This document shows positions 7,556 to 27,269 of a stretch of 64,000 nt of DNA, in pieces. The stretch's first letter is position 1. Each line of letters opens with the position of its first letter. The position numbers were made by a program, and so were the translations under genes. The notes beneath the pieces are model-generated. The model was not told the origin of the DNA and searched no databases. It saw only the letters and a program-made list of their open reading frames with translations. The DNA is from Umboniibacter marinipuniceus (GTDB taxonomy: Bacteria; Pseudomonadota; Gammaproteobacteria; Pseudomonadales; DSM-25080): NCBI RefSeq assembly GCF_003688415.1, contig NZ_REFJ01000001.1, positions 602,645-666,644 of the forward strand, written 5' to 3'.

Positions 7556-7566
7556 GGAGCGTTGGG

Positions 7567-7872: not shown

Positions 7873-7888
7873 TCCTCAGCTCCGTTGT

Positions 7889-8041: not shown

Positions 8042-8084
8042 AAATAGCCTTTAGTCGGACTTTAGCCGCTATCAAAGGCTATTT
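8042..8084 (-). terminator. Stem-loop overlapping the stop codon of the spermidine-synthase-like gene
   Basis: A perfect 11-base inverted repeat (AAATAGCCTTT and AAAGGCTATTT) flanks a 21-base loop. Read on the minus strand it begins within the stop codon of the gene at 8079-8771 and ends in an A/T-rich stretch. Confidence 0.5.
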
Positions 8085-8771: not shown

Positions 8772-8904
8772 AGTCGGTACGCCTTTAAGTTCAGCTTCAT
8801 CATACACTGAGTTATCTCACCGTGGGCACAAAAATAGATCGCTTTGAGTGGCGAGTATCGGTACAGGCCTCAGAGCAATTTCAACTCAATATTGAGCTAC
8901 TCGG

Positions 8905-9675
8905 TTAACCTGCAGCGGCCACCATGCCACCATCCACAGTGAGCGTATGCCCAGTTACGTAAGCACCGGCGCGTGAAGACAAATAGATCACGGTACCTGC
9001 TGCGTCTTCGTAACTCCCCAGACGTTTGAGCGGCACCGATTCCTTGAGGGCGTCATCGGCTTCAATAATGTGTGCCGTCATTTTGCTCGGGAAGTACCCC
9101 GGCGCAATGGCGTTGACCGTGATGAACTCTTCGGCCAGATCAGCGGCCAAGTGACGTGTTAGCTGGTGAACTGCGGCCTTACTGGCTGAATAGCTGTAAT
9201 TGTTCATCTTCGGGTTGGTTAAACCGTTGATGGATCCAATGTTAATCACCCTAGCAGGGTCCGCTTGGGTAGCGCTTTGTTTGAGTTGCTGGTGGAATTT
9301 CTGAACTAGGAAGAAGATTGATTTCACGTTGAGGTCCATGACTTTATCAAAACCTTCCTCGGCGAAGTTATCTATGGTGTCGCCCCAAGCCGCCCCAGCG
9401 TTGTTCACGAGAATATCAATGCTGGTCTCGCGCTGACTCACCGCCGCAACGAATTGACTGATACCTTGCGTTGTTGAGAGGTCAGAGGCAATGGCAATGC
9501 ATTCACCGAATTCACTAAGGCGGGAGGCGGTGGCATTGAGTTCCTCGGCACGACGTGCAGTGATGTAAACCTTGGCGCCAGACTGAAGTAAGCCGGTGGC
9601 TATCATCTCACCGATACCGCGTGAACCGCCGGTTACTACTGCTACTTTTCCCGCCACACTAAAGAAATTATTCAT
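8905..9675 (-). CDS. Short-chain dehydrogenase/reductase (SDR), RhlG/FabG-like
   Basis: Classical SDR of 256 residues. The cofactor loop is TGGSRGIG (residues 15-22), with a basic residue pair after the second strand (TARRAEEL) favouring NADP(H). NNAG and the catalytic Ser-Tyr-Lys (INIGSINGL, then YSYSASKAA) are intact, and the C-terminus ends in the usual YVTGHTLTVDGG. A GGAG ribosome site precedes the ATG. The overall pattern is like 3-oxoacyl-reductase RhlG and many secondary alcohol dehydrogenases; the substrate is undetermined. It is divergent from the serine hydrolase gene, with 235 bp between them. Confidence 0.85.
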   Translation of the reverse strand: MNNFFSVAGKVAVVTGGSRGIGEMIATGLLQSGAKVYITARRAEELNATASRLSEFGECIAIASDLSTTQGISQFVAAVSQRETSIDILVNNAGAAWGDTIDNFAEEGFDKVMDLNVKSIFFLVQKFHQQLKQSATQADPARVINIGSINGLTNPKMNNYSYSASKAAVHQLTRHLAADLAEEFITVNAIAPGYFPSKMTAHIIEADDALKESVPLKRLGSYEDAAGTVIYLSSRAGAYVTGHTLTVDGGMVAAAG

Positions 9676-9910
9676 TGCAAACTCCGTGATTAGTTAGTGT
9701 TTAAAGTGTGCGGTAAGGATAGGTAAATAGCTAGTAACGCAGGTGACAGTGTCTTGTAACGAGCTCACTGGAACAGAGCGCAAGACGGTAAGCTAAGTGA
9801 TATTAGGAGCAGTGAGGTTAGCCCGTGGGGCCTACTCTCGTCTTTCCGCAAATTGCTCCAGGCCTAGCTAGGGTGTAACGTAAGCGTTCAAATAATAATG
9901 AGTAACAAAC

Positions 9911-11101
9911 ATGAAAAAATGGTTTCTAGCAGTACTAGTAGTGATATTGGGGTCTGGTACCTACTATTGGCAAACTATTGATCGCGATGTTCGCAGTCTG
10001 ATCTTGACCTTCCCAACCAACAAAGACCTGCTGTTCTGGACAAACGAACAGCGCGATTATGCCTTCCGAGCCTTGGACAAAGTACCACTGTTAGCCAAGT
10101 CCCGTGTGATAGCAAGCGGAGACAATGTCTTGGCGCTGCCTGAAGGCGAGCCATTGGCATTGGATGTGGACGTGGACGCCTACATGGCGGCTCAGCGTGC
10201 CGCCGGTATGGTGATTATCCACAAGGGTGCGGTTCGCTATGAAAGCTATCAAAATGCGTTCACCGCCGATGGGCGTTGGACCAGTTTCTCGGTAGCCAAG
10301 TCATTTACCTCAACGCTCGTGGGTGCAGCCATTGAAGACGGCTATATTGACAGCATTGATGACAATATAGCCATCTATCTACCGGGATTGGCGGGCTCAG
10401 TTTACGACGGCGTATCAATTCGCCAACTGCTGACCATGACCTCGGGTGTCCGCTGGAATGAAGACTATGGTGATCCTGAGTCCGATGTGGCCAAGTTTAA
10501 TAACCACGTGCCTGAACCGGGTGTGGATACCACAATCTCTTATATGCGCAGTCTTGAGCGCGAAGCCCCGGCGGGGGAAAAGTGGGTGTATAAAACGGGT
10601 GAAACCAACCTTATTGGTCTGCTTGTTAGCACGGCAACTAACAAAACCCTTGCCGAGTATCTTTCGGAAAAAATCTGGGCGCCATTCGGCATGGAAGCGG
10701 ATGCAAGCTGGCTACTCAGTTCCTCTGGGCAGGAGATTAGCGGTTGTTGTATCCAAGCAACGGTGCGAGATTTCGCTAGGATGGGCTTATTTATGCTAGG
10801 CGGGGGTGAAGTTCAGGGCGAATCCATTCTACCGGACGGTTGGATTGTTAACGCTACCACCAATCAGGTGGGAAGCGATACGGCTGAAACCGGGTACGGC
10901 TACCAGTGGTGGACGCTTGATAACGGTGCTTACATGGCTCGCGGTATCTTCGGCCAAGGGATCTTCATTGATCCAGCGCGAAATCTAGTTATTGCCTCAA
11001 ACGGTAACTGGGAAGTCGCCAGTGATCGCACGCAAATTCCGGAACGGCTAGCATTTTATCGCGCTGTACAACAGGCAATTGATGCTGAAATAGCGCAATA
11101 A
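9911..11101 (+). CDS. Serine hydrolase, class C beta-lactamase/esterase family
   Basis: A 396-residue protein with an N-terminal hydrophobic segment (residues 2-19, uncleaved anchor or signal). The family nucleophile motif SxxK is present as SVAKS after RWTSF. The second motif is the tyrosine of YKTGETN, and the third region reads GIFGQGIF in place of the classic KTG/HxG. Members include esterases, DD-peptidases and 6-aminohexanoate-dimer hydrolases as well as AmpC, and this sequence is nearer the EstB/nylon-hydrolase branch, so antibiotic resistance should not be inferred. Single gene with its own promoter region. No strong ribosome site is seen before the ATG. Confidence 0.82.
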   Translation: MKKWFLAVLVVILGSGTYYWQTIDRDVRSLILTFPTNKDLLFWTNEQRDYAFRALDKVPLLAKSRVIASGDNVLALPEGEPLALDVDVDAYMAAQRAAGMVIIHKGAVRYESYQNAFTADGRWTSFSVAKSFTSTLVGAAIEDGYIDSIDDNIAIYLPGLAGSVYDGVSIRQLLTMTSGVRWNEDYGDPESDVAKFNNHVPEPGVDTTISYMRSLEREAPAGEKWVYKTGETNLIGLLVSTATNKTLAEYLSEKIWAPFGMEADASWLLSSSGQEISGCCIQATVRDFARMGLFMLGGGEVQGESILPDGWIVNATTNQVGSDTAETGYGYQWWTLDNGAYMARGIFGQGIFIDPARNLVIASNGNWEVASDRTQIPERLAFYRAVQQAIDAEIAQ

Positions 11102-11348
11102 AATGCTTGACTGTTGGCGTTTAATTCAAGTTTTAGGCTGCTTTTTAATCACTGGTCATTCGCCAACCATTGCTCCCAACGCCCGTGAATACCGGCTATC
11201 GGGAAGTTACCCACAGGGTTGTTAGGTGTTTGCTGGGGGTAAGGGCGACAGGCGAAGATTCGCGATACTACCGTGCCCTCTCAGGTGCGGGAATTTTTGG
11301 TTCTTGGACGAGGGCCACCGAGAATGAGCTCTCCGTGAAGTGTTTAGG

Positions 11349-11651
11349 TTATGAATCTGAAGATTTCACTTTGCTGGCGGTGACATCAAGTAATGATCCC
11401 GAAACGTATTTGTGAAGAACGCTGGAGATCAGTGTTTGATATGGAATGCCCTCTTGAAGAGAGCGAGACTGAATGGCCTGTAGATCTCGGCTAGAAATAC
11501 GGATATTGATGCGCTTATCCTTCTTAAAGGTGTTCTCCACGGCAGTGGAGAGCTCCTGTTGACGAGCTTCCGACAGTTTGGATTCAAAGTTACCAGCTTC
11601 TACTTCGTCCAGTAGCGACTGTTCTTCATTGCTAAGCAGTTGGTCTTTCAT
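11349..11651 (-). CDS. CopG/ribbon-helix-helix antitoxin
   Basis: A 100-residue protein. The C-terminal half carries a ribbon-helix-helix-like DNA-binding segment (INIRISSRDLQAIQSRSLQE) and the family ending GIPYQTLISSVLHKYVSG. The N-terminal half is acidic and probably contacts the toxin. Its ATG overlaps the toxin stop codon by four bases, so the order is toxin first, which is the reverse of the classic arrangement but usual for BrnT/BrnA-like pairs. It should neutralise the toxin and repress the operon. Confidence 0.8.
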   Translation of the reverse strand: MKDQLLSNEEQSLLDEVEAGNFESKLSEARQQELSTAVENTFKKDKRINIRISSRDLQAIQSRSLQEGIPYQTLISSVLHKYVSGSLLDVTASKVKSSDS

Positions 11652-11929
11652 GACTCCGAACTCCGTAGGTAACGTTTGGTGAGCTTGCGACTAGGTATAA
11701 TAGTTTTTAAGAAAATTTCGCTATCAGACTCAACGTAAGGGACAAGGTAAGCATAGTCATTCAGTGCAACCACGAACACACTTTGGTTGGGGTAGTCTTG
11801 GCTGTTGGGGTACCTAAGGTCATCTAATAGGCCACCGTTTTGCAGAAAAAACAGCACTTCCTCAAATGAAACTCCGCGGGTTTCAATGAGTGATTGGTTC
11901 TTTACTGCATTCCAGTTGAATAGCTTCAT
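11648..11929 (-). CDS. BrnT-like toxin (RelE-fold)
   Basis: About 93 residues from the ATG giving MKLFNWNAVKNQSLIETRG. The WNxxKNxxxxxxxGVSFEEV pattern is that of BrnT-type ribonuclease toxins, followed by a beta-rich core and a C-terminal basic segment (IIPSRKLTKRYL) where RelE-fold toxins place catalytic residues. An upstream GTG in frame would add six residues. It is the first gene of the operon with the CopG-type antitoxin. A copy of the TACMCAAAWRGGTA motif lies about 120 bases upstream. Confidence 0.75.
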   Translation of the reverse strand: MKLFNWNAVKNQSLIETRGVSFEEVLFFLQNGGLLDDLRYPNSQDYPNQSVFVVALNDYAYLVPYVESDSEIFLKTIIPSRKLTKRYLRSSES

Positions 11930-12051
11930 GTGCAGCTTATCATACACGTATGTGTGCCTTTTGTCATCAGGTGGCGATTGCTCGATGGCTGGTTCGTCAT
12001 ACGGCGCGGGGGGTATAACATGATGATCTGCCCATTGGCTTAACTAGTAAC

Positions 12052-12065
12052 TACCCAAATAGGTA
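12052..12065 (+). promoter_or_regulatory. TACMCAAAWRGGTA motif, copy upstream of the toxin operon and the TonB/TPR gene
   Basis: TACCCAAATAGGTA lies inside a larger inverted repeat, AACTACC and GGTAGTT, at 12049-12068. It sits in the divergent region between the BrnT-like operon and the TonB/TPR gene, so either could be its target. Confidence 0.5.
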
Positions 12066-12126
12066 GTTCTTTGCCAAACCTAACGATGTTCATGTTGATG
12101 TCAGGGCACGACACCGGTTAGCGCGA

Positions 12127-12160
12127 CTCGGCGGGGTGCCGAGCTGGAGGCGTTCCTCCA
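12127..12160. other. Two adjacent perfect stem-loops in the leader region of the TonB/TPR gene
   Basis: CTCGGC-GGGGT-GCCGAG (12127-12143) and TGGAGG-CGTT-CCTCCA (12145-12160) are separated by one base. They lie in a 400-bp gap between the BrnT-like toxin and the TonB/TPR gene. They could be part of a structured 5' leader, a small RNA, or a REP-like element. No T-run follows, so a terminator role is not obvious. Confidence 0.55.
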
Positions 12161-12330
12161 TAGAAAGATCGAGACGCAAATAGCGGCGCTTGCGCAGTCA
12201 ATCACTGGCTTAGTAAGATAGTGGTTTATTGTTTTAACTAATCATCGGCAACGCAGCAGGGTTATTATCCTGTTCGGTCTATCCAGAAAAGGACTTCCAC
12301 CAGAATGGATGTCCACAGAAAAGGACTTCT

Positions 12331-13413
12331 ATGTTAACTAGCCTTATTTTTTCATTGGCTACCGCAGCCACTAATCCAGTTGAACTTAAACAGGATGAGT
12401 CAATCTCCACCACGCCAAGTGAGCATGTTGTCCAGCTTTCCGCTCAAAGTGAATTTGTGGCACCGGTTGCGATACAAAAATTTGCACCGCAGTTTCCCCG
12501 GCAGGAATTAAGGGAGGGTCGCGAAGGGTGGGCCGTTGTCAGTTACGTTGTGGATACACAGGGGAATGTGGTCAATGCCGTCATTGATGATTCAAGTGGC
12601 AGTCGTTATTTCGAGCGTGCGGCCATTGCCGCGGCGCTTAAGGCGAAATACGAACCGGCAACACTAAATGGTGAAGCCATTGAGTCCTGTGATAACGCTA
12701 ATATGTTCACCTTCGAGTTTCAAAATAGTGATGGCAGCCCATCGAACGATGGTGGCTCCCGTCGTTATCGAACAGCGAACAACGCCGCCGTGGAGGCCTA
12801 TCAGCAAGCGAATTGGACTGAGTTTAGCGCGGCGGTAGCCGAGCTGGCAGAGATCTCTCGCGGTAGTTTCTACGAAGAGGCTAACTTCCAAATGCTAAAC
12901 GGCTTAGATTTGGAATTAAGAAATGAGCCAACGGAAGCGTTGAAGGCATACCAGAAGGCGGTAAATTGGGGGGTTGAACGCTTATCCATGGATAATGCCG
13001 CAGTGGTGGTTAAACAGGGCTTTGCGTTGCTCTTAGATACCGAAGATTATGTTGGCGCCGTGGATTGGGCAGCGGGTATTCCTGAGGAATGGCGGGAAGT
13101 ACCACAGATTATGGAAGTGATTGCACTGGGTGATCAGATTAATGCTCAGCTTGAACAGCGCGAGTATGTGGTGGCTAACGCAAGCTTGGGCGAACGCGGG
13201 GCGTGGTCGAAAAAACTGGCTCGTCCCGTGTTTGAGCTAGCGGTTAATGAGGGTGAAGTATCGGCCTTTGAACTGCGCTGCAGCGGTAAATTCAAACGCT
13301 ACGATTATACCGGTCAAGGTGCCTTCACCATCCCAAGTAGTTGGGGAGAGTGTTCACTGCGATTAGAAGGTTCGACCAACGCGAACGTGAGTGTCTATCA
13401 ATTCAATAGCTAA
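12331..13413 (+). CDS. TonB C-terminal-domain protein with TPR-like region (paralogue 1)
   Basis: A 360-residue exported protein with a short hydrophobic N-terminus (LTSLIFSLATAAT). Residues about 45-135 form a TonB C-terminal-like domain: EGWAVVSYVVDTQGNVV, then DDSSGSRYFERAAIAAALKA. About 150-270 is helical and TPR-like (AYQQANWTEFSAAVAELAEI; EALKAYQKAVNWG). The last 90 residues are a beta-rich module with two cysteines (ELRCSGKFKRYDY; WGECSLRLEG). A close relative lies at 50804-51895 with the same order. The ATG follows an AAAAGGACTTCT ribosome site that is the second copy of a 13-base direct repeat. It is probably periplasmic or envelope-associated; the lack of a long proline-rich spacer argues against a canonical energy-transducing TonB. 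Confidence 0.72.
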   Translation: MLTSLIFSLATAATNPVELKQDESISTTPSEHVVQLSAQSEFVAPVAIQKFAPQFPRQELREGREGWAVVSYVVDTQGNVVNAVIDDSSGSRYFERAAIAAALKAKYEPATLNGEAIESCDNANMFTFEFQNSDGSPSNDGGSRRYRTANNAAVEAYQQANWTEFSAAVAELAEISRGSFYEEANFQMLNGLDLELRNEPTEALKAYQKAVNWGVERLSMDNAAVVVKQGFALLLDTEDYVGAVDWAAGIPEEWREVPQIMEVIALGDQINAQLEQREYVVANASLGERGAWSKKLARPVFELAVNEGEVSAFELRCSGKFKRYDYTGQGAFTIPSSWGECSLRLEGSTNANVSVYQFNS

Positions 13414-13464
13414 TTGGCCGGGGAAGACTCGCTGTTGTTTCCATTGGAACGCTAGATCTAGCCG

Positions 13465-13779
13465 TTAGAGCGAACTAATTTTCTCCAGCGTCTCGGGATG
13501 CTGTTGCACTAATTTTAACAGGGTGAGCGCAGGCCCATTGGGTACGCTGCGCCCTTGCTCCCAGTTCTCAAGGGTGCGAGGCGAAGTGCGTAGCAAATGC
13601 GCAAAAACGCTCCGCGATATATTCAAGCGCTCGCGAAGATCCATGATTTCGTAGGGTGCAATTTCAAGTTGAGGCAATGTTGAAACACCCAAGCTGCGCA
13701 AGGTTATTTTGCCTTCGCTGTGCTGCTTTACTTCGTTGAGAGAATTTGTCAGCTCGTTGAATAAATCACGTTTGTTCAT
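13465..13779 (-). CDS. HigA-like XRE antitoxin
   Basis: A 104-residue protein with a C-terminal helix-turn-helix (LRERLNISRSVFAHLLRTSP, then RTLENWEQGR) and the ending NGPALTLLKLVQQHPETL that is typical of HigA/NadS-type antitoxins. It binds and neutralises the toxin encoded just upstream and should repress the operon. Its start lies 14 bases inside the toxin gene, so the two are translationally coupled in the toxin-first order usual for HigBA. Confidence 0.85.
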   Translation of the reverse strand: MNKRDLFNELTNSLNEVKQHSEGKITLRSLGVSTLPQLEIAPYEIMDLRERLNISRSVFAHLLRTSPRTLENWEQGRSVPNGPALTLLKLVQQHPETLEKISSL

Positions 13780-14098
13780 CTAGCCAAGCCTCCATAAATC
13801 GTTTTATTTGCTGCTTCTGCACAGGCGATAAATCGCTCATTTCGCCTTTACGATAGATCGCTAGTAGGTAAATGGTTTCAGCGCAATGCCTATGGCAGTA
13901 GATCACTCGAAGACCACCCCGTTTACCCGATGTGCCACGCTTGAAACGAAGCTTTCGCAGACCTCCCGTACCTTGGATAACATCTCCCGTAAGCGGGTAC
14001 ATTAACAGCAAGTTTTGGAGCTCATTAAATTCCCCGTCGTTCAGATAAGAGCGACGCATTCTCATAAAAATCGTAGATTCAATAAATAGCCAGTTCAT
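13766..14098 (-). CDS. HigB/RelE-type toxin
   Basis: A 110-residue protein. The RelE-fold core shows TGDVIQGTGGLRKLRFKRG, then GGLRVIYC and a hydrophobic strand IYLLAIYRKGE, with a C-terminal helix PVQKQQIKRFMEAWLDEQ. These match the HigB-2/RelE-like superfamily of ribosome-dependent mRNA interferases. It pairs with the HigA-like antitoxin downstream. A TATACGTATA palindrome stands 17 bases upstream of the ATG and may be the operator. Confidence 0.83.
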   Translation of the reverse strand: MNWLFIESTIFMRMRRSYLNDGEFNELQNLLLMYPLTGDVIQGTGGLRKLRFKRGTSGKRGGLRVIYCHRHCAETIYLLAIYRKGEMSDLSPVQKQQIKRFMEAWLDEQT

Positions 14099-14115
14099 TA
14101 AATCACTCTACGCAT

Positions 14116-14125
14116 TATACGTATA
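14116..14125. promoter_or_regulatory. Palindrome TATACGTATA upstream of the HigBA-like operon
   Basis: Perfect 10-base palindrome overlapping the expected promoter of the toxin-antitoxin operon. Its position suits autorepression by the HigA-like protein. Confidence 0.4.
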
Positions 14126-14271
14126 GTTTCGGGATCGCACCAATAGCTAGTTTTTATGACAGGTTGGCAGGTTGGCAGGGTAATCTAAAGTCACCAGCGG
14201 CGTTGGAAAAATGCTGGTAACTAAGATAGGGTGAAGAAGTAACGCAATCTTGCCACTCAGGGAGCGAAACG

Positions 14272-15015
14272 ATGAAAGCAAAAGACAGATTAACGCTTAC
14301 GGCTAAAAAACTACTCAGCGGGCTCTTCCTGGTTGGTTTTACGGCTTCTTCTCTAACAGTTGCCGAAGAGCAATCCGATAACTCAGCGCCGGTCGTCAAA
14401 CAGGTCGATCACATACTCTATGCCGCGCCCGACCTCGAAACCGGTATGGATGAAATCGAACAGCTACTTGGGGTGAGACCAGCCATTGGCGGTAAGCATC
14501 CTCAATACGGCACGCACAACGCGCTGTTGTCGTTAGGCAACGGACAATATTTCGAAGTGATTGCGGCCGACCCTGAGGCATCACCGCCGATTCGCGGCAT
14601 GCTCTTCGATATAGACAGCCTAGATAGTTCGCGCCTGATTGCTTGGGTTATGCAGGTGGATGATCTCGCTAACCAAGAAGCTAAGTATGACGGTGCCGGC
14701 ATTGGTGCAGTATCTTCGGGTGTTCGTGAACAGCCCGACGGTACGGTGCTTCACTGGGCACTTTCCGATCCGTATGCTTTATCTCCAAGCGGGGCAATTC
14801 CTGCACTCATCGATTGGGGTAATACGCCTCATCCCTCAACGGGTGCTCCGCTTGCAGGCGAGTTGGTGAGCTTTGCGATCTATCATCCTAATCCTAACGA
14901 GATGACCGAAAAGCTCGCTATTCTCGGGGTAGATCTCGAGGTAAAAGAATCAGCGCAGCCACGACTCGTCGTCCGAATCAAACGTCTCGATGGTCAGGTG
15001 GTGGAAATTGAATAG
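14272..15015 (+). CDS. Exported glyoxalase-like (Glyoxalase_3-type) domain protein
   Basis: A 247-residue protein with an N-terminal signal peptide (residues about 1-31, ending SSLTVAEEQ). The mature part begins VDHILYAAPDLETGMDEIEQ and contains GGKHPQYGTHNALLSLGNGQ, YFEVIAADPEA and later AELVSFAIYHPNP, the hallmarks of the Glyoxalase_3 group of the VOC superfamily. Potential metal ligands are the His of VDHI, the His of THNALL and the Glu of FEVI. A GGGAG ribosome site precedes the ATG. A second VOC protein follows after 42 bases, so the two are probably one operon. The substrate is unknown. Confidence 0.82.
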   Translation: MKAKDRLTLTAKKLLSGLFLVGFTASSLTVAEEQSDNSAPVVKQVDHILYAAPDLETGMDEIEQLLGVRPAIGGKHPQYGTHNALLSLGNGQYFEVIAADPEASPPIRGMLFDIDSLDSSRLIAWVMQVDDLANQEAKYDGAGIGAVSSGVREQPDGTVLHWALSDPYALSPSGAIPALIDWGNTPHPSTGAPLAGELVSFAIYHPNPNEMTEKLAILGVDLEVKESAQPRLVVRIKRLDGQVVEIE

Positions 15016-15850: not shown

Positions 15851-16045
15851 ATGCGAACTAACATTGTTATCGACGATCAACTCATGGCCAACGCGCTAAA
15901 AGCAACCGGTCTGCGCACTAAGCGCGAGGTGGTTGAGGAAGCGTTAAAACTCATCGTGCGCCAACGCCAGCAACAGTCAATCAAATCCCTCCGTGGGAAG
16001 CTTGATTGGCAGGGTGACCTAAATGAACTCCGCAGCGCCGAATGA
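15851..16045 (+). CDS. vapB: VapB-type ribbon-helix-helix antitoxin
   Basis: A 64-residue protein: MRTNIVIDDQLMANALKATG and LRTKREVVEEALKLIVRQRQ make up a classic type II VapB (VapB/AbrB-independent RHH) DNA-binding half. The C-terminal tail LRGKLDWQGDLNELR would wrap the toxin. A GGGG ribosome site precedes the ATG. An AT-rich stretch with a repeated TGTGTATA (about 15811 and 15833) lies just upstream and may hold the operator. The stop overlaps the toxin start by four bases. Confidence 0.9.
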   Translation: MRTNIVIDDQLMANALKATGLRTKREVVEEALKLIVRQRQQQSIKSLRGKLDWQGDLNELRSAE

Positions 16046-16431
16046 TATTTGTTGATACCAGCGTTTGGGTTGATTACTTTAACGGGGTAAGTTCACCTCA
16101 AGTTAACGAATTAGATCGAAGGCTTGATCATGATGTGGTGGCGATGGGCGACCTGATTCTCCTCGAAATTCTTCAAGGGTTTAATAACGACCGTCACTAT
16201 AACCTTGCGCGTGAGCGTCTGCTGCAACTAGCGCAACATGAGTTTCTGAATTACCGATTAGCGCTTAAGGCTTCCGAGAATTTTCGCTATCTCCGCAAGA
16301 AAGGAATAACGGTTCGAAAATCAAATGACGTCATTATCGCCACGTATTGTATTGAGTATGGCGTACCGCTGTTATTTTCTGATCGCGATTTCGAGCCGTT
16401 TGTGAAGCATTTGGGATTGCAGGCGGTATAG
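16042..16431 (+). CDS. vapC: VapC-type PIN-domain ribonuclease toxin
   Basis: A 129-residue PIN domain with the four acidic positions in place: D5 in IFVDTSVWVDY, the Glu of LILLEILQG, the Asp of KSNDVIIATYC and the Asp of LLFSDRDFEPF. PIN toxins of this family cleave tRNA or rRNA in a metal-dependent manner. Translation is coupled to the VapB gene by an ATGA overlap. Confidence 0.92.
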   Translation: MIFVDTSVWVDYFNGVSSPQVNELDRRLDHDVVAMGDLILLEILQGFNNDRHYNLARERLLQLAQHEFLNYRLALKASENFRYLRKKGITVRKSNDVIIATYCIEYGVPLLFSDRDFEPFVKHLGLQAV

Positions 16432-18754: not shown

Positions 18755-20500
18755 TTGACCGATTTCTACGAAAGCCAAGCCGAAGAGCTGGCGGCGCAAT
18801 ACAATGCGATTGCGGCGCCCTCGGTTCACGACAGCTGGAAGGACTACTGGCCAACACAAGACCAGCCTATTACCGCGCTGGACGTTGGTGCGGGTACCGG
18901 TCGCGATGCCAAATGGTTGGCCGAGCTTGGCGCTGAAGTGTATGCCGTAGAACCAGCGCAGGCGATGCGCGCAATTGGTAAGCAATACACGCAATACCTC
19001 AATTCCACTACCCACGTAACTTGGCTGGATGATGCCTTACCTGGTTTGGCCACAACTCATCAGCTTGGACTGCGCTTCGATCTCATTCTTGTTAGTGCCG
19101 TGTGGATGCACATTCCCAAGGGTGAACGTCAGCGTGCTTTTCGTAAGCTCACTAACCTCTTAGCACCCAACGGTAAGTTAGTGATTACGCTTCGTCATGG
19201 TGAGTTCACTGATGGCAGAACTACCCATGGGGTAAGCGTTAGCGAGCTGGAGGCCTTTGCCAAACACCACGGTATGCTGGTTAAGCACGTAGGCACAGAT
19301 GGGGATCAGCTAAAGCGCGGTAATGTGTGGTGGGAGACGGTGGTGTTGCAACTACCGGACGACGGCTCAGGTGAGCTACTTAAGGTCCGTCATGCATTGG
19401 TGAACGACAGTAAGTCCGCTACCTATAAGCTGGCCTTACTCAGATCACTAGTTCGTATTGCTGATACCCATGCGGGTTGCGTGGTAGATAAGTCAGACGG
19501 CAGGGTAGCTATTCCGCTGGGCTTGGTGGCGTTGTACTGGGCGAAACAGTACAAAAAGCTCTTACAGTTCCCCATTCAAAAACCAGTGAATGCCAACGAG
19601 GTTGATCCGTGCCATTGGGGTATTCAACAGGCCACGAATACCAGCCGAGGTTTGGGTTTTGTGAAGGAAGGTTGGCGTACTCTAGGCCATCTTCAGGCGG
19701 ATGACCTACACATTGGGGGAGTTTTTCTGGCAGAAGAAGCCAAAGCAATTAGCTCCTTACTCAGTGACAGCGCAAAAACTATTAAAGAGATGCCCGTTAA
19801 GCACCTGTGGCACAAGGAAAAGACCAACTACCTGTTTGAAGTGAATCGCCGCTCCGTTAGAAAGGCCGATTCAGTGGTGCTTGATAAAACCTACTTCGAA
19901 AGCTTTGGTGAGTTCATCTTGGATGAATCCCTCTGGCAGTGCTTTAAGGTATTCGGCAGCTGGATTGAACCGCTGATTGTTAATCAATGGGTGGCCCTCA
20001 TGCAAAGCTACCCGCTTAACGCTAAACGACAACTCAGCCAGGAACACTACCGCGCCGCCTTGGCTTGGATTGATGCTGACCACGATACCTCTCAGGCACG
20101 AAAACGCGCCGACGAATTGCGTAAAGACGGCTACGATCTCCGATCGGTATGGAGTGGTAAGTTAGTAAGCGATAACTACCATATGGACCATTGTGTTCCT
20201 TTTGCTCACTGGCCCAGTAATGATCTTTGGAATTTACTTCCAACCACCGCCAAGGAGAACCTGAGTAAGAGCGATAAGGTGCCGAGTCAGGCTAAGCTCA
20301 TTAAGGCAAAGGCCCAAGTGATCAGCTGGTGGCAGGATGCCTGGGATAACAGCTCAACCAAATCGACTTTTATGATTCAAAGTGCGATGGCGCTGCCGGG
20401 GTTAAGTGGTGAAGTGAATAGCTTTGATGAGGTGTATGAAGCCATGACGGTTCAGGTTCGAGGAGTGAAGGATCGGTTGTTGGTGAGGGAGTGGGTGTAA
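18755..20500 (+). CDS. Class I SAM methyltransferase fused to an HNH endonuclease
   Basis: A 581-residue protein starting at TTG (MTDFYESQAE), preceded by AAGGGA. Residues about 40-190 are a Rossmann methyltransferase: motif I LDVGAGTGRDAKWL (42-55), acidic residue E66 after AEVYAV, then LILVSAVWMHI. No N6-adenine or C5-cytosine catalytic motif (NPPY, PCQ) is visible, so the methyl acceptor is unknown. About 215-345 is a distinct helical region (NDSKSATYKLALLRSLVRIA; AIPLGLVALYWAKQY). The C-terminus has a beta-beta-alpha HNH motif, MDHCVPFAHW...NDLWNLLP...ENLSKSDK, with H479, N493, N502 and K505. It stands at the edge of a defence-rich stretch, upstream of a restriction-modification operon on the same strand. 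A role in nucleic-acid defence is inference. Confidence 0.8.
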   Translation: MTDFYESQAEELAAQYNAIAAPSVHDSWKDYWPTQDQPITALDVGAGTGRDAKWLAELGAEVYAVEPAQAMRAIGKQYTQYLNSTTHVTWLDDALPGLATTHQLGLRFDLILVSAVWMHIPKGERQRAFRKLTNLLAPNGKLVITLRHGEFTDGRTTHGVSVSELEAFAKHHGMLVKHVGTDGDQLKRGNVWWETVVLQLPDDGSGELLKVRHALVNDSKSATYKLALLRSLVRIADTHAGCVVDKSDGRVAIPLGLVALYWAKQYKKLLQFPIQKPVNANEVDPCHWGIQQATNTSRGLGFVKEGWRTLGHLQADDLHIGGVFLAEEAKAISSLLSDSAKTIKEMPVKHLWHKEKTNYLFEVNRRSVRKADSVVLDKTYFESFGEFILDESLWQCFKVFGSWIEPLIVNQWVALMQSYPLNAKRQLSQEHYRAALAWIDADHDTSQARKRADELRKDGYDLRSVWSGKLVSDNYHMDHCVPFAHWPSNDLWNLLPTTAKENLSKSDKVPSQAKLIKAKAQVISWWQDAWDNSSTKSTFMIQSAMALPGLSGEVNSFDEVYEAMTVQVRGVKDRLLVREWV

Positions 20501-20880: not shown

Positions 20881-21213
20881 ATGAAAAACGCTAAACAATC
20901 GCGCTGTGTAATCGGGATTAAGGGACAAAGCCCCGACCCAGATTATCCCATCGATATCTGGTTCGATTCGCTGAAATCGGTGGCCAATGTGCTGTCGAGA
21001 GAAAACCGACAGTTGTTAAAAATAATTGCTGAGAAACAGCCGCAGTCGGTAACTGAGCTGGCCACGCTTACAGGCAGAGCGGTTAGTAATGTGTCGAGAA
21101 CATTGAAAACATTGAGCAAGTACAACTTAGTTGAAATGCAAAGTACAAAAAACATGCTTCGCCCTACAGTCAACCATCAAAATTTTTTAATAGTAGTTAA
21201 TGATGAGAAATAA
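20881..21213 (+). CDS. Winged-helix transcriptional regulator (MarR/ArsR-like), likely controller of the R-M operon
   Basis: A 110-residue protein. The N-terminal 35 residues include YPIDIWFDSLKSVANVLSRE. A winged helix-turn-helix follows: NRQLLKIIAEKQPQSVTELA, TLTGRAVSNVSRTLKTLSKY, and the wing LVEMQSTKNMLRPTV. The layout is like small predicted transcriptional regulators with an ArsR/MarR-type domain. The methyltransferase gene begins inside its last codons (14-base overlap), so it is the first gene of the R-M operon and probably times expression. It is not a classic XRE-type C protein. Confidence 0.8.
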   Translation: MKNAKQSRCVIGIKGQSPDPDYPIDIWFDSLKSVANVLSRENRQLLKIIAEKQPQSVTELATLTGRAVSNVSRTLKTLSKYNLVEMQSTKNMLRPTVNHQNFLIVVNDEK

Positions 21214-22501
21214 GAACGACATCCTTCTGCAAGCGGAAGAAATTATTAAACCTTTAGCACTAGAGCATGTGCCACAAGCCAGTAACGTCGCAGCAGTAGT
21301 TGATCAATGGCTGCACGCCATTGCGACTGATAGCCAGTTTTACTGTAATCCTGATGTCTGCAAACCAGCACAGCTAAAGAAAAGTGTAATAACTCAGTTA
21401 CAACATAATGGTTTATATACAAAGCGAGACACATTCTTTGACGATGTTTTCGGTGGCTTAAATTTGAAGCCTGAATTTGATACTAAATTTCGTTTTATCG
21501 ACCTATTTGCGGGAATAGGTGGGATCAGATTAGGCGCTCAATCTAACGGTGGGGCTTGTGTATTTTCTTCGGAGTTCGATACGTTCGCTCAAAATACCTA
21601 TTCATGTAACCATGGCGAGTACCCATTTGGTGACATAACAAACATTCGGGAAAAGAACATTCCAGATCACGATCTTTTATTAGCGGGATTCCCCTGTCAA
21701 CCATTCAGCTATTCAGGGCGCTGTGAAGGTTTTGAGGATAAAACGAGAGGCACATTATTTTTTGATGTTCTTAGAATATTGGAGCAAAAAAAACCAAAGT
21801 TTGCACTTTTAGAGAACGTGAAAGGTTTTAAATCCCATAACAACGGGGAGACTATGTTTATAGCGCTTAAAGCGTTAGATGAAGCAGGTTATGTCCCTCA
21901 TTGGACTATTCTGAATAGCTACGATTATGGTGTGCCGCAATATCGAGAAAGGTGGTACTGCGTAGCTATTCGAAAGGATCTCGGTATTACTGATTTTTCA
22001 TTTCCAGACTTTAAAGATAGAAAAACTAAACTTAAAGACATAGTCGACTTAAGCGATGATGATGAGTCTTTATCAATTACGAATTTTGAGAAAAATAGAA
22101 TTAAGTATCATTTTGATAATTATGAAAAACAGGAAAGAGTTCAGCATGACAACTCAATGTATGAACCTCATACGAAGAAAGGAAGACATGGAGTATTTTC
22201 ATTTTTGAAGCCTGATGGCGCTCTTAGGTTTCATGTTGGAGACGTTGCAAAAACTCAGATACAAGAAGCGTTTTACGCTAGCTTAGAAACGTATGCGCCT
22301 ACTATTATTGCCAATCGAGTCCCGAAATTATGGGATATTCAACGAAAGCTATCTGTAACAGAATCGTTGCGTCTCCAAGGCTTTCCTGATGAATTTCATT
22401 TTAGAGTTTCCAAAGCTCAAGCATATAAGCAACTAGGTAACTCCGTGACTCTAAACGTTGTCCAAGCAATTATTGGGAATATTATAAAAATTAAGGACTG
22501 A
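21200..22501 (+). CDS. DNA (cytosine-5)-methyltransferase
   Basis: A 433-residue C5-cytosine methyltransferase. Motif I is FIDLFAGIGGIRLG (about 99-112), motif IV with the catalytic Cys is GFPCQPFSYSGR (163-174), motif VI is LLENVKGF, motif VIII YGVPQYRERWY, and motif X QLGNSVTLNVV near the end. The target-recognition region lies between VIII and IX. An extra 90 or so residues precede motif I, longer than in minimal enzymes of this family. It modifies host DNA to protect it from the McrB/McrC-like nuclease encoded downstream (inference from gene order). Coding sequence is AT-richer than flanking chromosomal genes. Confidence 0.93.
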   Translation: MMRNKNDILLQAEEIIKPLALEHVPQASNVAAVVDQWLHAIATDSQFYCNPDVCKPAQLKKSVITQLQHNGLYTKRDTFFDDVFGGLNLKPEFDTKFRFIDLFAGIGGIRLGAQSNGGACVFSSEFDTFAQNTYSCNHGEYPFGDITNIREKNIPDHDLLLAGFPCQPFSYSGRCEGFEDKTRGTLFFDVLRILEQKKPKFALLENVKGFKSHNNGETMFIALKALDEAGYVPHWTILNSYDYGVPQYRERWYCVAIRKDLGITDFSFPDFKDRKTKLKDIVDLSDDDESLSITNFEKNRIKYHFDNYEKQERVQHDNSMYEPHTKKGRHGVFSFLKPDGALRFHVGDVAKTQIQEAFYASLETYAPTIIANRVPKLWDIQRKLSVTESLRLQGFPDEFHFRVSKAQAYKQLGNSVTLNVVQAIIGNIIKIKD

Positions 22502-22506
22502 TTATT

Positions 22507-24732
22507 ATGGCGTACTTGTCTTTATCTAAAATCCAAGACGCAAGAACCTATGTTGAACAAAACATAAGACAGCCCGAGACCTTTATGGGATTAGTGTTGT
22601 TTTTGATATGTGTCGTAGAGAGAAAGAGAAATGGTTCTTATCTAAAGTCAGATATGAATCGGTTTTCAAAGCTTGCGGATGATGCTTTCTACTTATCTAA
22701 TGCACCGTCGTCGTACTCAGCTAGGTACTGGTTTGCATTACTCACAAATGACTGGGTTGATCAAGTCAGAGATCACTTTCTCAAAGGAAATAAAGTTTCG
22801 GCAAATAAAGTTATGCAGTCACTTTTTTGGCGAGACAGCTTTGTCGAGCTTGAATCCAAAGCCAGTTTAATTCCAAACGATATTTTAGAGTCACTATTCA
22901 TAGTAGATCTCGATGAATCAGAATTCAATCAACCCAGCAACGTAACAGCAGCTGATTTTTTAAGTAATTATGGGGGGACACAAGAAGCATTAACCATCAA
23001 ATTCGATGGTACTTTTGTAAAGAAAAAAGCCGGAGATTTGAGTGCTGGGCCTTTTGGGCAGACCTTGTATGCAGCTAGGGAAATAAAAAAGATAATATCA
23101 ATTTATGACTTTGACTTTATAGAGAAATTCGACTTGTCTTCTGAATACGCAAGGCCAAGCGTTAAACTTGATGTGATTGTTAATGCGATAAAAGAGAAAT
23201 TTAGCTTATGGATGTTAAGTAAAGGTTTGTCTGAAGCAACCGCATCATCGTATTCTGGATCCGGAATCGCCTACTGCGATAAGTTCACAAGTAATATCAC
23301 TGCCAATGTACGTAGTTTTTATCAATTAAACTCTGAACAAGTATTAGCCGCTTTAGGTGAACTTGAGCAGGTAGCTGAATGGATGCAAGCTGATGAAAGT
23401 GGTAATCGAATGTATAGTGCCGCTTGCAAAAAGCTAGCTGAATTCTTGGATGAAGAGTATTCGAGTTCATTTACGACCTTATCCAAACCATTTCTCCTAC
23501 TCGCTGGTATCTCAGGCACGGGTAAAACCCGCTTTGTACGTGAGCAAGCAAAAGCTTCAGGCAAATTTACTGAAACCTATTGTTTAACTTCTGTACGACC
23601 CGACTGGAATGAGCCGAGTGATTTACTTGGTTACATATCGCGCCTAAATGGCGCTGCTGAATACATTACCACCGATGTATTGCAGTTTATCGCCAAAGCT
23701 TGGCGTGCCATTACTGATAGCGGCTTAGCCGTTGAAGTACAGGAGAGAGAGGGCCAAGGTAAGCGTTTAGTAGTGGCAGGCGAACGGAATGAATTAAATA
23801 GGGTATTGCCTTATTGGTTGTGCTTGGACGAAATGAATCTTGCCCCCGTTGAACAGTATTTCGCTGACTATTTATCGGTAATGGAAACCCGCGAATGGCG
23901 TTGGACCGACGAGAGCTTCACCTACGGCAGTGATGCCTTATTAAAACCTGCCACTATCAACGAGGTCGCTGATAAAGAAAAGCTACGCGAAGCGCTAGGC
24001 TTTAAAGGTACACAATACGATGAGCTGTGGGGGCATATTTGCCTGTATGGTTTAGGTATACCGTTTAACCTGCTTGTCGCTGGCACGGTAAATATGGATG
24101 AAACCACACATGGCTTCTCACGAAAAGTAATTGATCGTGCGCTGAGCTTTGATTTCGGTGCCTTTTTCCCGAACGATTATAACGACTTTTTCACTCCGAC
24201 TAGTTGTAATAAGCGTCTAAGTTATCCCATTTGGTCAAATGCTAATAAAGCAGACTTAGCCAATACCTTCGACACTGATGGTACAAAAACGGTGGTGTTT
24301 TTATCGGCTGTCAATGCAGTGCTTAAAAACACACCCTTTGAATTGGCATTCCGTGCTTTAAATGAACTCCTTCTGGCTGTTGCCAGTAGTCAACCACAAG
24401 ATGATGCGGCCCTAAAAGCCGTGTGGGATGACTTTATGATGTGTAAAGTTTTACCGCGTATAGAAGGTGATACCGACAAGCTCACCACATCAGATGGTAA
24501 GGGTTTATTGGAAGAGCTTAATACTGTGCTAGCTACTCAGTTAGCTCTGATTTGGGAAACATCTGAAACGGACGAGGTGAATTGGCGCCCCGACTTATAT
24601 CGCGAGAAAATCGTGGCCGATGGTGCTACGGATGAGGAAAACGTACTTCGCATAACTTGCCGTTCGAAAGCAAAGTTGGAGTGGATGAGTGATCGATTAG
24701 CTAGTGCCACGTTTACCAGTTTCTGGCCTTAA
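22507..24732 (+). CDS. McrB-like AAA+ NTPase, motor subunit of restriction system
   Basis: A 741-residue protein. Residues 1-320 form an unrecognised N-terminal region, probably the DNA-recognition part, AT-rich in codon use. The AAA+ core follows: Walker A AGISGTGKTRFV (about 333-344), Walker B WLCLDEMNLAPVEQYFADYL (437-456), and the McrB-type motif GTVNMDETTHGFSRKVIDRA. In McrB, GTP hydrolysis drives translocation and activates the McrC nuclease; McrB-like subunits also occur in LlaJI and BsuMI type systems with C5-methyltransferases. The gene starts five bases after the methyltransferase stop and is followed after 26 bases by the McrC-like gene. Confidence 0.9.
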   Translation: MAYLSLSKIQDARTYVEQNIRQPETFMGLVLFLICVVERKRNGSYLKSDMNRFSKLADDAFYLSNAPSSYSARYWFALLTNDWVDQVRDHFLKGNKVSANKVMQSLFWRDSFVELESKASLIPNDILESLFIVDLDESEFNQPSNVTAADFLSNYGGTQEALTIKFDGTFVKKKAGDLSAGPFGQTLYAAREIKKIISIYDFDFIEKFDLSSEYARPSVKLDVIVNAIKEKFSLWMLSKGLSEATASSYSGSGIAYCDKFTSNITANVRSFYQLNSEQVLAALGELEQVAEWMQADESGNRMYSAACKKLAEFLDEEYSSSFTTLSKPFLLLAGISGTGKTRFVREQAKASGKFTETYCLTSVRPDWNEPSDLLGYISRLNGAAEYITTDVLQFIAKAWRAITDSGLAVEVQEREGQGKRLVVAGERNELNRVLPYWLCLDEMNLAPVEQYFADYLSVMETREWRWTDESFTYGSDALLKPATINEVADKEKLREALGFKGTQYDELWGHICLYGLGIPFNLLVAGTVNMDETTHGFSRKVIDRALSFDFGAFFPNDYNDFFTPTSCNKRLSYPIWSNANKADLANTFDTDGTKTVVFLSAVNAVLKNTPFELAFRALNELLLAVASSQPQDDAALKAVWDDFMMCKVLPRIEGDTDKLTTSDGKGLLEELNTVLATQLALIWETSETDEVNWRPDLYREKIVADGATDEENVLRITCRSKAKLEWMSDRLASATFTSFWP

Positions 24733-24758
24733 ACAATTGGCTAGGGGAGGGTGAATAG

Positions 24759-27269
24759 ATGCCGGAGTTATTAAGGCTTAAAACAGACGAATTTTTATTC
24801 ACCGTCAAATCGAAGTCTATTGAAAATAAAAGCCAAACTTTCAATAGAACAATGCACACACGCCGTTCTGGAGGCTCTGAAGTATTTATTAGAGTTGAGC
24901 CTGCACTAAAACTAAGCGAAGCACCAAGAGGTTTTTGCGATGGGGCGTGTTCGCTTTTGCGCGCAGTGGAAGATCTAAATCATTGCGATCAAGTGAATAT
25001 AGATACTCCTATATTTTTTGAGAATACGCTTTATCAGATTGAGTGGATATTTCTGCAAGACGCTCAACGCGCGAGACTAAATCATCGCTCTAAGTCGGTT
25101 TGTGATTCATTTATCTTTACATCTAGTGAAGACGGATTAAGTGCGCGTTTAACCGGTACCATCAATACTGGCAACGATGTGGGGTGGTTAAGTTTACCAG
25201 TTACTTTTGAGTTGAATGGAGAAACGCAAACCCAACACATAGCGTTTGAAGTACTACCAACCAAAATGGCAATGCACCAAGACTTGCCTGCTATGTACGA
25301 AACCATCGACAGAGTTTACCCACTTTGGCGCTTTAGTTTAGTAGAGAAAACACAGCAAGACGCTGCGGCTAGCCAACAACGCGGGAATTTTCCACTCATG
25401 TGGTTGGCGAATTTTGCCTCATTAAGGGAGCGCTTTGAGCAAGGTTTAAAGGTGATTTGTGCCGCGCCTCATAGTCGCTTACAACCCACGGTGGCCCAGA
25501 TAAAGGCCGCCAAGTTAAAAGGTCGTTTGTCACATAAATTAGCCGAGCGAGTGAAGCAAGACTTTGCGAACGGCCAGTACGATAAGCGCTACTCGATCGA
25601 GAAAAAGCAGCTGAGTGTCGACACCCCAGAAAACCGTTTTATCAAAATGGCGGTGAGTAAAAGCAAACGGCAATTAGCAGCGTTCGAGCAAAAGCTTAGG
25701 GAAACTAATGAATCGCCAGAGCGGCAACGGTTGTCGGATTCATTTCTGAGCGAACTTCATAGTTGGCAGCAACCGCTGCAAAAAGTGTTGGGCCAAAGTT
25801 TTCTAAAAGAGGTTGGTGCGTACTCTGGGTTAAGCAGCGAGTCGTTAGTTCTGCAGCAAAAAACAGGTTACAGCGCGGCCTATCGTGTTTGGCAAGAGCT
25901 GAAATTTTATTTAGATGTGCTTGGTAATCAATCGAGTATTTCGATTAAATCGGTGGCTGAGATTTACGAAGTGTGGTGCTTTTTGTGTTTGAAACAGATT
26001 TTAGAGCACGACCTTGGCTTTGAGATGGTGGAAAACAACGCGACGAAGCTTGCTCAGAATGATTTTTTTGAGTACCAGCTAAAGGATGGTTTTGCCGGCG
26101 CTTTTAGTTTTAAACGAAGTGATGGCGTCACTGCTAGGTTGGCGCACGAGCCTAAATTTACCAAAAAAGGTAAAACCATTCGTTCCTACTTAGTTAACCA
26201 AGAGCCGGATATCGTTTTGGAAGTCACTTTGCCAAAAGACGCGAGCTCAGCTGTAGGTTCATCGGAACAAAGGCAGTTTGTTTGGCTGTTTGATGCCAAG
26301 TACCGTATTAAAACCGATAGAAGTCGCTTTGATGATAGTGATGAAGATATTGAAGGTACCGATTACGTCCCAGATGATGCCATTAACCAAATGCACCGTT
26401 ATCGTGATGCGCTGATACGTTTATCAGAGCCACGCGTGCCGCATTCTGCTTCAGGTTCCATTGTAGGACAACCTAGTAAGAAAAGCCGTCCTGTTTTTGG
26501 AGCGTTCGCTTTATACCCCGGATTTTTTGATCAATCCATAACACCTAATCCTTACGCAACCGCAATAGAAGAAGTGGGTATTGGCGCATTTGCATTACTA
26601 CCGAGCCAGGATGAGAGCGGGTATTCTGGCCACCAGTGGTTGTTAGAGTTCTTGCAAGCTCAGATTGGAAGAGCTCCGAGTACGGCGATAGGGCGAGGCA
26701 ATAAGATAAATTATCCGTTGGCCAGTCTGGCTGAAAAACTCTATGTACAAGAGGCTGCACGCATACCGTATTACGGCATGCGACAAGTACTTTATCCTGA
26801 TCTAACTATGTCAGCGTCTTTGAGTGGACAACGTGGCCGAGATAAAGGCTATTTTGAAAAATTTGAGCAAGGCACAGCAGAGTGGTATCACCTTCCGAAA
26901 AGCACATTTCTTAACAAGTTCAAGCAGCACATCGCAGAGGAGATTAGGTATTTAGCGTTGGCAACGACTTCAGAGATGCAAAGCTCAACCAAGAAAATTG
27001 ACAAACTTTGGCCGGTGAAACGAGCGTCGCTCGTACCTCGTTATACCATTACCGAGGATCAAGCAGGTAAACAGTCAGACTCAGCTGATTTGTACTATTT
27101 ATTCGAACTAGGCAAGCCGCTCTTGCTACAGACACCGGTAACCAATGTTCCACATCGGCCAATGAAAAATTCAATGAAACTTACAACGTTATCGCGCCTT
27201 GAGGGCGCAACTCAGTTTGCCGAGGTTGAAAAAGTATACGAGGAGGCATTGTCGGTCCCTATTCGATAA
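24759..27269 (+). CDS. McrC-like DUF2357-family nuclease subunit
   Basis: An 836-residue protein with a strong GGGGAGG ribosome site. The N-terminal half fits the DUF2357-type region of McrC-like proteins. In the middle, VAEIYEVWCFLCLKQILE is the conserved YExWC-like helix before the nuclease. The PD-(D/E)XK core is visible as NQEPDIVLEV (D484), then FVWLFDAKYRIK (D512, K514), followed by AINQMHRYRDAL. The extra 300 C-terminal residues after the nuclease core include two short stretches with aromatic clusters. It should cut DNA that the McrB-like motor engages. This is larger than Escherichia coli McrC (about 350 residues). Confidence 0.87.
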   Translation: MPELLRLKTDEFLFTVKSKSIENKSQTFNRTMHTRRSGGSEVFIRVEPALKLSEAPRGFCDGACSLLRAVEDLNHCDQVNIDTPIFFENTLYQIEWIFLQDAQRARLNHRSKSVCDSFIFTSSEDGLSARLTGTINTGNDVGWLSLPVTFELNGETQTQHIAFEVLPTKMAMHQDLPAMYETIDRVYPLWRFSLVEKTQQDAAASQQRGNFPLMWLANFASLRERFEQGLKVICAAPHSRLQPTVAQIKAAKLKGRLSHKLAERVKQDFANGQYDKRYSIEKKQLSVDTPENRFIKMAVSKSKRQLAAFEQKLRETNESPERQRLSDSFLSELHSWQQPLQKVLGQSFLKEVGAYSGLSSESLVLQQKTGYSAAYRVWQELKFYLDVLGNQSSISIKSVAEIYEVWCFLCLKQILEHDLGFEMVENNATKLAQNDFFEYQLKDGFAGAFSFKRSDGVTARLAHEPKFTKKGKTIRSYLVNQEPDIVLEVTLPKDASSAVGSSEQRQFVWLFDAKYRIKTDRSRFDDSDEDIEGTDYVPDDAINQMHRYRDALIRLSEPRVPHSASGSIVGQPSKKSRPVFGAFALYPGFFDQSITPNPYATAIEEVGIGAFALLPSQDESGYSGHQWLLEFLQAQIGRAPSTAIGRGNKINYPLASLAEKLYVQEAARIPYYGMRQVLYPDLTMSASLSGQRGRDKGYFEKFEQGTAEWYHLPKSTFLNKFKQHIAEEIRYLALATTSEMQSSTKKIDKLWPVKRASLVPRYTITEDQAGKQSDSADLYYLFELGKPLLLQTPVTNVPHRPMKNSMKLTTLSRLEGATQFAEVEKVYEEALSVPIR

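Follow-up and report, generated by a model that had tools for sequence, protein, structure and literature searches.

Within a 64,000-nucleotide stretch of the genome of Umboniibacter marinipuniceus (contig NZ_REFJ01000001.1, positions 602,645 to 666,644 of the forward strand; the window, in what follows) lies a gene whose product joins a predicted S-adenosylmethionine (SAM) methyltransferase, a middle domain and a predicted HNH nuclease on one intact chain. All three domains are conserved, with the SAM-binding and HNH residues in place, the fused gene has a wide and patchy distribution, and the methyltransferase belongs to a family that is coupled elsewhere to several DNA-targeting nuclease systems. 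The open reading frame (ORF) is uninterrupted and encodes 581 residues from a TTG start, with Pfam Methyltransf and HNH_4 matches over their cut-offs, as expected from a preliminary description of the sequence that had proposed this combination of activities on a single polypeptide. The orthologue from the same genus is equal in length, also begins with TTG and is 74% identical. With a non-synonymous divergence (dN) of 0.19 and a proportion of synonymous differences (pS) of 0.74, the synonymous sites being near saturation, comparison of the two sequences indicates that the gene is under purifying selection. A search of the whole genome found the full-length gene once, together with one weak methyltransferase-only relative elsewhere.

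Relatives of the protein were collected by scanning GTDB species genomes (one genome per species) with an alignment query, a scan of genome contigs with the single sequence having given no match. At least 476 relatives were present among the 598 pattern matches listed and the best 80 loci (given here by their L numbers) were kept, in all of which the match spans the methyltransferase into the HNH domain (from residue 5 or earlier to residue 507 or later). Of these 80, 76 were listed for alignment (L034 and L087 were short, L081 and L094 were not returned), and 70 proteins plus the window protein were aligned, giving 71 full-length rows. The SAM motif, the HNH residues and K220, K225, R230, W262, W466 and W526 are invariant in all 71, indicating that all three parts of the protein are under constraint. 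An AlphaFold2 model based on the 71 sequences has a mean predicted local distance difference test score (pLDDT) of 92.5 and a predicted template modelling score (pTM) of 0.84; for a model of residues 203–581 alone the values are 93.2 and 0.92.

The N-terminal domain is matched by Pfam Methyltransf_12, Methyltransf_25 and Methyltransf_11 within residues 42–144, all over their cut-offs (E 2.7e-12 to 4.1e-12), and its predicted structure aligns with those of ChlM, UbiG, NodS, CmoM and METTL6 with VIA-align Z scores of about 19–22. The Rossmann fold and intact motif I recognised in the preliminary description are borne out by the alignment, in which G45, G47, G49, R50 and D51 are kept in 71 of 71 rows, and the domain is thus a predicted class I SAM-dependent methyltransferase. 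The [DNS]PP[YFW] motif of amino-methyltransferases was sought in the window protein and is absent, in agreement with the earlier remark that no base-methylation motif could be seen.

At the C-terminus, Pfam HNH_4 matches residues 469–510 (E 1.1e-5, 25.7 bits against a cut-off of 22), a profile search matches Cas9, and Cas9 HNH domains align to the predicted structure with Z up to 7.5. All four residues of the HNH motif named in the preliminary description are invariant. Their spacing equals that of H840, N854, N863 and K866 of Cas9. Profile match and intact H-N-N-K set together identify the domain as a predicted nuclease of the HNH_4, or Cas9, type.

The middle domain is the least readily assigned. 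The preliminary description had it as roughly 130 residues long, helical and unassigned; it in fact spans some 240 residues and is a mixture of helix and strand in the AlphaFold2 model, and whilst there is indeed no Pfam match over it, the fold of one known domain offers a lead that profile comparison does not confirm. This is the sulfur-binding domain (SBD) of ScoMcrA, the sole relevant row for the middle domain among the 50 fold matches listed, of which residues 92–252 (5zmm_C) align over 134 residues with Z 5.7 and a root-mean-square deviation of 4.4, a Z below 8 being one that may reflect no more than a common arrangement. The ScoMcrA residues H116, R117, Y164 and P165, all inside this stretch, bind sulfur (PMC6224610). 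At the expected place of the SBD ‘HK/HR’ pair, K225 is kept in 71 of 71 rows and position 224 is tyrosine in 57 and histidine in 14; at that of the ‘YP’ pocket, position 266 is tyrosine or phenylalanine in 70 of 71 and position 268 is proline in 42 of 71 and lysine in the window protein. When the middle domains of the fused family were compared by hhalign with six true SBD proteins, the probability was 0.4 and the wrong region was aligned. The SBD profile used is thin (six rows, effective number of sequences 2.6), so a remote relation could escape it; the same profile itself recovers 8h0l and 5zmo. The middle domain can thus be said to resemble the ScoMcrA SBD weakly, in modelled fold only, and the SBD link is a lead. 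Since the SBD has itself been argued to be a winged-helix domain (Rakesh and colleagues, PMC10853773), a broader reading as a winged-helix DNA-binding domain is equally possible.

Table 1. Features of the fused gene, in window coordinates (wHTH, winged helix-turn-helix)
Feature	Position	Strand	Remarks
Whole gene	18755..20500	+	581 aa, TTG start; methyltransferase, middle domain and HNH on a single chain
Class I Rossmann SAM methyltransferase, residues 1-203	18755..19363	+	Pfam, VIA-align, motif check
SAM-binding motif I, residues 43-51 (DVGAGTGRD)	18881..18907	+	Alignment
Middle domain, residues 204-443 (~240 residues)	19364..20083	+	Candidate divergent sulfur-binding-type (wHTH) DNA-reading domain
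Y224-K225, expected place of SBD ‘HK/HR’ pair	19424..19429	+	Placed by eye
Y266-K267-K268, expected place of SBD ‘YP’ pocket	19550..19558	+	Placed by eye
HNH nuclease domain, Cas9 type, residues 444-581	20084..20497	+	Pfam, fold, profile search
H479, presumed catalytic	20189..20191	+	71/71 rows
N493	20231..20233	+	71/71 rows
N502	20258..20260	+	71/71 rows
K505	20267..20269	+	71/71 rows

The preliminary description had allowed that a database family might already cover this exact fusion. No model of the full fusion was found in Pfam, NCBIfam, PHROGs or PADLOC (2023 release): NCBIfam gives sub-threshold matches only, chiefly to methyltransferases and Cas9, PHROGs partial matches to methyltransferase and endonuclease VII, and PADLOC partial matches to mad2 over the methyltransferase and to Cas9 over the HNH domain. 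The mad2 match (E 3e-16), shared with the phi458 and L168 methyltransferases described below, covers profile positions 294–447 of 492 and leaves positions 1–293 unmatched, so that the likeness to Mad2 of the MADS system falls short of a full-length match; no other mad gene was among the matches listed for four further nearby ORFs, the only ones checked. Fold searches with the whole model gave methyltransferase matches only among the 50 best rows listed, Foldseek searches of PDB and BFVD with the 203–581 model gave no match at E ≤ 0.001, and no paper describing this fusion was found in searches of open-licence PMC papers.

The 80 loci include, by their record titles, Gammaproteobacteria, Alphaproteobacteria, Burkholderiales, Desulfuromonas, Acidobacteria, Nitrospiraceae and one cyanobacterium. 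Strong full-length copies are present in 12 of 293 sampled genomes of the window’s order, spread over eight families, and in one of two same-genus genomes (that without it being 87% complete); one genome carries two fused copies 34 kb apart. Among 51 plasmid records matched, there are nine places with at least 80% query coverage. Viral contigs yielded 14 loci, 13 of them methyltransferase-only and one HNH-only, and phage records a single methyltransferase-only match, with no full-length copy found in either collection; E. coli genomes gave no DNA-level match to the gene. The fused gene is, in short, widespread, patchy and usually solitary. Free-standing proteins in cyanobacteria, Deinococcus and Hymenobacter (L009, L010, L018, L019; 22–27% identity, that of L009 matching HNH_4) share the middle domain and HNH with the window protein and lack the methyltransferase. 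A small ORF upstream of three of these proteins was considered as a partner and rejected, the three ORFs being unrelated. A divergent full-length subfamily of about 560 residues (L181, L182, L183; 25–27% identity) was also seen, L182 having methyltransferase and HNH_4 matches in Pfam. In L169, a methyltransferase-only frame (G072 C9, 95832–96634) is followed by an 89-residue frame matching the HNH tail only, which may be a remnant of a deletion.

The company kept by the methyltransferase on its own is more informative. Methyltransferase-only relatives are about 200 residues long and 30–49% identical to the window protein’s domain, and in some a further gene follows immediately or overlaps. The survey covered 53 regions, 11 of which had no called methyltransferase gene and two of which were duplicates, leaving 40 distinct regions. 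In 15 of the 40, the partner, judged by eye and by named searches, is a nuclease or helicase; this is not an unbiased rate, since high-scoring matches were taken first. The partners comprise six SBD-nucleases, six PLD-helicase-DUF3427 proteins (four adjacent, two fused), two separate HNH_4 nucleases and one Azaca ZacC.

In the first group the SBD is N-terminal, and a profile of the six partners matches 8h0l at E 1.7e-57 and the ScoMcrA SBD weakly. The L168 partner alone matches the ScoMcrA SBD (5zmm, E 2e-8) and also that of SprMcrA (7cc9 group). The C-termini are HNH_2 (L168, L172, L176) or NOV_C (L173), with L177 and L174 assigned by alignment. The SBD-NOV_C fusion behind the methyltransferase in L173 (7120–8454) matches the PADLOC candidate PDC-S36 (4e-97), as do two immediate neighbours of fused genes, and PDC-S36 may therefore be half of a two-gene system. 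In the second group a PLD-ResIII-DUF3427 protein adjoins the methyltransferase in L170, L234, L236 and L238 (convergently in L238) and is fused to it in L179 and L180; the L170 protein matches PADLOC mREase_IV (E 8e-115) and has the domain order of SauUSI (PMC3874153). The separate HNH_4 nucleases of L237 and L245 adjoin the methyltransferase in what amounts to a split form of the window architecture, and in L246 (253–7809) a 461-residue protein containing the methyltransferase is encoded immediately after an Azaca-like ZacC gene (E 1e-275). A further kind of partner is a membrane protein. In E. coli prophages (L007, 2336–4775; L100–L107), a gene with two membrane helices (by hydropathy) precedes the methyltransferase and the pair faces a PAPS-reductase-family gene, which in phi458 matches PADLOC SspD (6e-19); in Rhizobium (L008, L017) a two-helix membrane segment, similar by eye to that of the prophages, is fused to the methyltransferase.

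A midpoint-rooted FastTree of 69 methyltransferase domains (L015 and L016, of 71 entries, were not recovered) fits with such partners having been exchanged. The L168 methyltransferase, with its SBD-HNH partner, groups with the window protein and L020 (support 0.87), the Azaca-linked L246 domain with two fused proteins (0.91) and the split-HNH L237 domain with fused L072 (0.84), and the PLD-linked L238 and membrane-fused Rhizobium methyltransferases also fall among fused branches. The agreement is that of a single-domain tree of moderate support, which does not give the direction of change.

Around the fused gene itself there is less order. The restriction–modification (R-M) operon that the preliminary description had placed alongside it is real (20881–27269, plus strand: an HTH regulator, a 5-methylcytosine methyltransferase, an AAA protein matching PADLOC PDC-M26A at E 1e-33 and a DUF2357-PDDEXK_7 protein matching PDC-M26B at E 2e-8) but is not conserved as a neighbour, the genes that follow the same-genus orthologue being a 173-residue ORF and an HNH_2 gene. 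Clustering of the neighbours of 87 fused proteins (window included; L094 missing, having been overlooked by the first gene caller) revealed no conserved operon partner: the largest cluster covers nine loci and is TonB-receptor-like by eye, the next covers eight and is restriction-helicase-like, and immediate neighbours are diverse and mostly ordinary. A PLD-helicase gene lies within 10 kb of the fused gene in 8 of 87 loci, co-directional and adjacent or one gene off in four of them (L073, L085, L094, L099), and relatives of the HNH_2/NOV_C partner nucleases are found near it in 6 of 87, with the SBD kept only in L059. Elsewhere in the window, ORFs resembling a HigBA-type toxin–antitoxin pair (13465–14098, minus strand) and a PIN-domain-like toxin (16042–16431, plus strand) were noted by eye.

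What might such a protein do? Because the methyltransferase is the shared component and the DNA-attacking or membrane module varies, the simplest account is that the methyltransferase distinguishes self from foreign while attack falls to the partner. We therefore tentatively favour, at somewhat less than even confidence, a reading of the window protein as a stand-alone, single-chain, restriction-type anti-phage enzyme, in which the methyltransferase discriminates self by a non-classical mark and the HNH domain cuts unmarked DNA. The middle domain would position the protein on DNA. Using SAM, the methyltransferase would give host DNA a non-classical ‘self’ mark or maintain one there, or would license that DNA in some other way, and the nuclease module would respect the mark; the Cas9-type HNH domain would nick or cut DNA without it. 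In this reading the action of the methyltransferase on DNA, its protection of self, the reading of DNA by the middle domain and the choice of phages as target are all inferred. A DNA-binding part on one chain could serve both activities, as it does in Type IIG/IIL enzymes, with which the protein shares modification and cleavage on a single chain. Membership of that group can be rejected, however, as the [DNS]PP[YFW] motif of N6-adenine and N4-cytosine amino-methyltransferases is missing; with that motif absent, the chemistry of the methyltransferase must differ from theirs. Further differences are that the N-terminal methyltransferase is of another fold subgroup and that the HNH is of the Cas9 type. 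The SBD-HNH Type IV enzymes (SprMcrA, EcoWI, ScoMcrA) are alike in having a reader domain followed by a C-terminal HNH, with the weak ScoMcrA fold match, but the window protein differs in its N-terminal SAM methyltransferase, its Cas9/HNH_4-type HNH, the lack of a pocket proline and the lack of any SBD relation found at sequence level. SauUSI-type PLD-helicase-DUF3427 Type IV enzymes are recurrent neighbours or fusion partners of the same methyltransferase family, yet use a different nuclease, include a helicase and have no HNH_4 domain.

Several observations weigh against the favoured reading. By predicted fold the methyltransferase is nearest to small-molecule and tRNA methyltransferases, not to DNA base methylases. 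In 25 of the 40 methyltransferase-only regions, these 25 coming mainly from the alphaproteobacterial sample, no such partner was recognised. Of 19 orphan methyltransferases, all but L271, L272 and L002 form one clade (16 of 19, support 0.99), which branches among the fused proteins, whereas five of the SBD-linked and five of the PLD-linked methyltransferases branch outside, as do L245 and the divergent fused subfamily. The two-helix membrane partner sits poorly with a pure R-M model and, as several partners resemble modification-dependent enzymes, a protective methyltransferase is not the obvious fit to them. Nor is the genomic setting decisive. PADLOC searches of all 127 neighbours and of 127 control genes gave 179 and 14 matching models, respectively, but cross-matching models exaggerate this difference: in a random 20 of the neighbours only three proteins match (a 5-methylcytosine methyltransferase, a PLD-type Type IV enzyme and an IetA-like ATPase). 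Counting models of one name as one protein, 12 of the 127 control genes match (at most 15), several of them housekeeping-like (3/20 against 12/127, Fisher p 0.43). When 13 restriction-type proteins were used as queries in a targeted search, 27 genes were recovered near 20 of 87 fused loci, compared with none at 19 control stretches (Fisher p 0.02). The stretches had been positioned manually on contigs from the genomes that hold the fused loci, and some of the queries were drawn from the window or from fused loci; if only queries first seen beside methyltransferase-only genes or in the sister genome are counted, 14 of 87 loci and 0 of 19 stretches remain (p 0.07). The preliminary suggestion of a stand-alone defence protein, for which homologues found mainly outside defence contexts were to count as refutation, thus gains from the coupling of methyltransferase relatives to restriction-type nucleases and not from the PADLOC sample, and the two neighbourhood searches neither refute it nor uphold it cleanly.

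The membrane partner and the fold of the methyltransferase both speak for a rival reading of the protein as an abortive-infection switch. Here the methyltransferase would sense or consume SAM or S-adenosylhomocysteine, or would methylate a small molecule, RNA or protein linked to infection, and would release the HNH effector on infection, the effectors (HNH, SBD-nuclease, PLD-helicase, two-helix membrane protein) being exchangeable. A two-helix protein, adjacent in the prophages and fused in Rhizobium, suits a membrane effector better than it suits R-M, and the methyltransferase has a fold of the small-molecule/tRNA group. Against this, the remaining coupled partners belong to the restriction-type DNA enzymes, and several of them contain helicase domains; no classical toxin was seen, by eye or in the named searches, as a partner in any of the 40 methyltransferase regions. 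We regard the switch as a possibility, but a doubtful one.

That the gene is solitary, with mostly ordinary neighbours, and that orphan methyltransferases exist with no nuclease partner would also be compatible with a role outside defence, the protein being a DNA-repair, homing or small-molecule enzyme carried on mobile islands. The repeated coupling of the same methyltransferase family to restriction-type nucleases, to Azaca and to dnd genes makes this unlikely.

The dnd genes raise the question of DNA phosphorothioation. Methyltransferase genes lie beside them in four loci (L008 and L017 from Rhizobium, L168 and L237): dndCDE are convergent with the methyltransferase in L237, as are dndBCDE in L168, where a Zorya-like set lies on the other side. 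The L168 region (876–14575) forms a single island of Zorya-like genes, methyltransferase plus SBD-HNH_2 and dndBCDE. Near the fused genes, one immediate neighbour matches PADLOC SspD at 2e-135, probably the PP-loop gene at 11842–12684 of L075, which is convergent with the fused gene; ten Dnd proteins used as queries picked out no relative at E ≤ 1e-10 in any of the 87 fused loci. We also examined 47 genomes with a full-length copy, gathered in three scans (30, 11 including the window genome, and six). Five of these have dndC over the cut-off, compared with 4 of 229 genomes of the class (Fisher p 0.009, a comparison confounded by the 47 not having been drawn like the control), and the window genome has none. 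The fused enzyme, therefore, neither generally needs Dnd phosphorothioation nor is excluded by it. Least likely of the readings considered here is, accordingly, one in which the middle domain is a true SBD, the protein a Type IV-like nuclease that acts on phosphorothioated DNA and the methyltransferase an accessory: the ScoMcrA fold match, the [HY]-K pair, the pocket proline of 42 rows, the four dnd-associated loci and the SspD neighbour all favour it, but the hhalign result, the lysine at the pocket position, the failure of the Dnd queries and the window genome’s lack of dndC do not, and a phosphorothioate-dependent nuclease would be predicted to exclude hosts of the kind that five of the 47 genomes represent.

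Returning to the restriction-type reading, a bolder version of it, which we consider improbable, would have the protein as the all-in-one member of a new R-M class, in which DNA receives a methyl mark of novel chemistry (on the sugar-phosphate backbone, for example) from a small-molecule-type methyltransferase, with an SBD-type domain as the reader of the mark and interchangeable nucleases (HNH, SBD-HNH, SBD-NOV, PLD-helicase) as its enforcers. As it stands, the fusion is a variant of single-chain or partner-swapping restriction-type enzymes, and is categorically new only if the methyltransferase writes a novel mark on DNA.

The wider interest lies in the methyltransferase: a single uncharacterised family has at least five kinds of partner, DNA-targeting or membrane-bound, to which it is joined either by fusion or as a gene of its own. 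Should this family mark or license DNA, it would be a modification component that is easily overlooked, since it has no classical DNA-methylase motif, and a number of nucleases at present classed as solitary Type IV enzymes could each turn out to be one half of a two-part system that has gone unrecognised. The single-chain form described here offers a compact and directly testable model.

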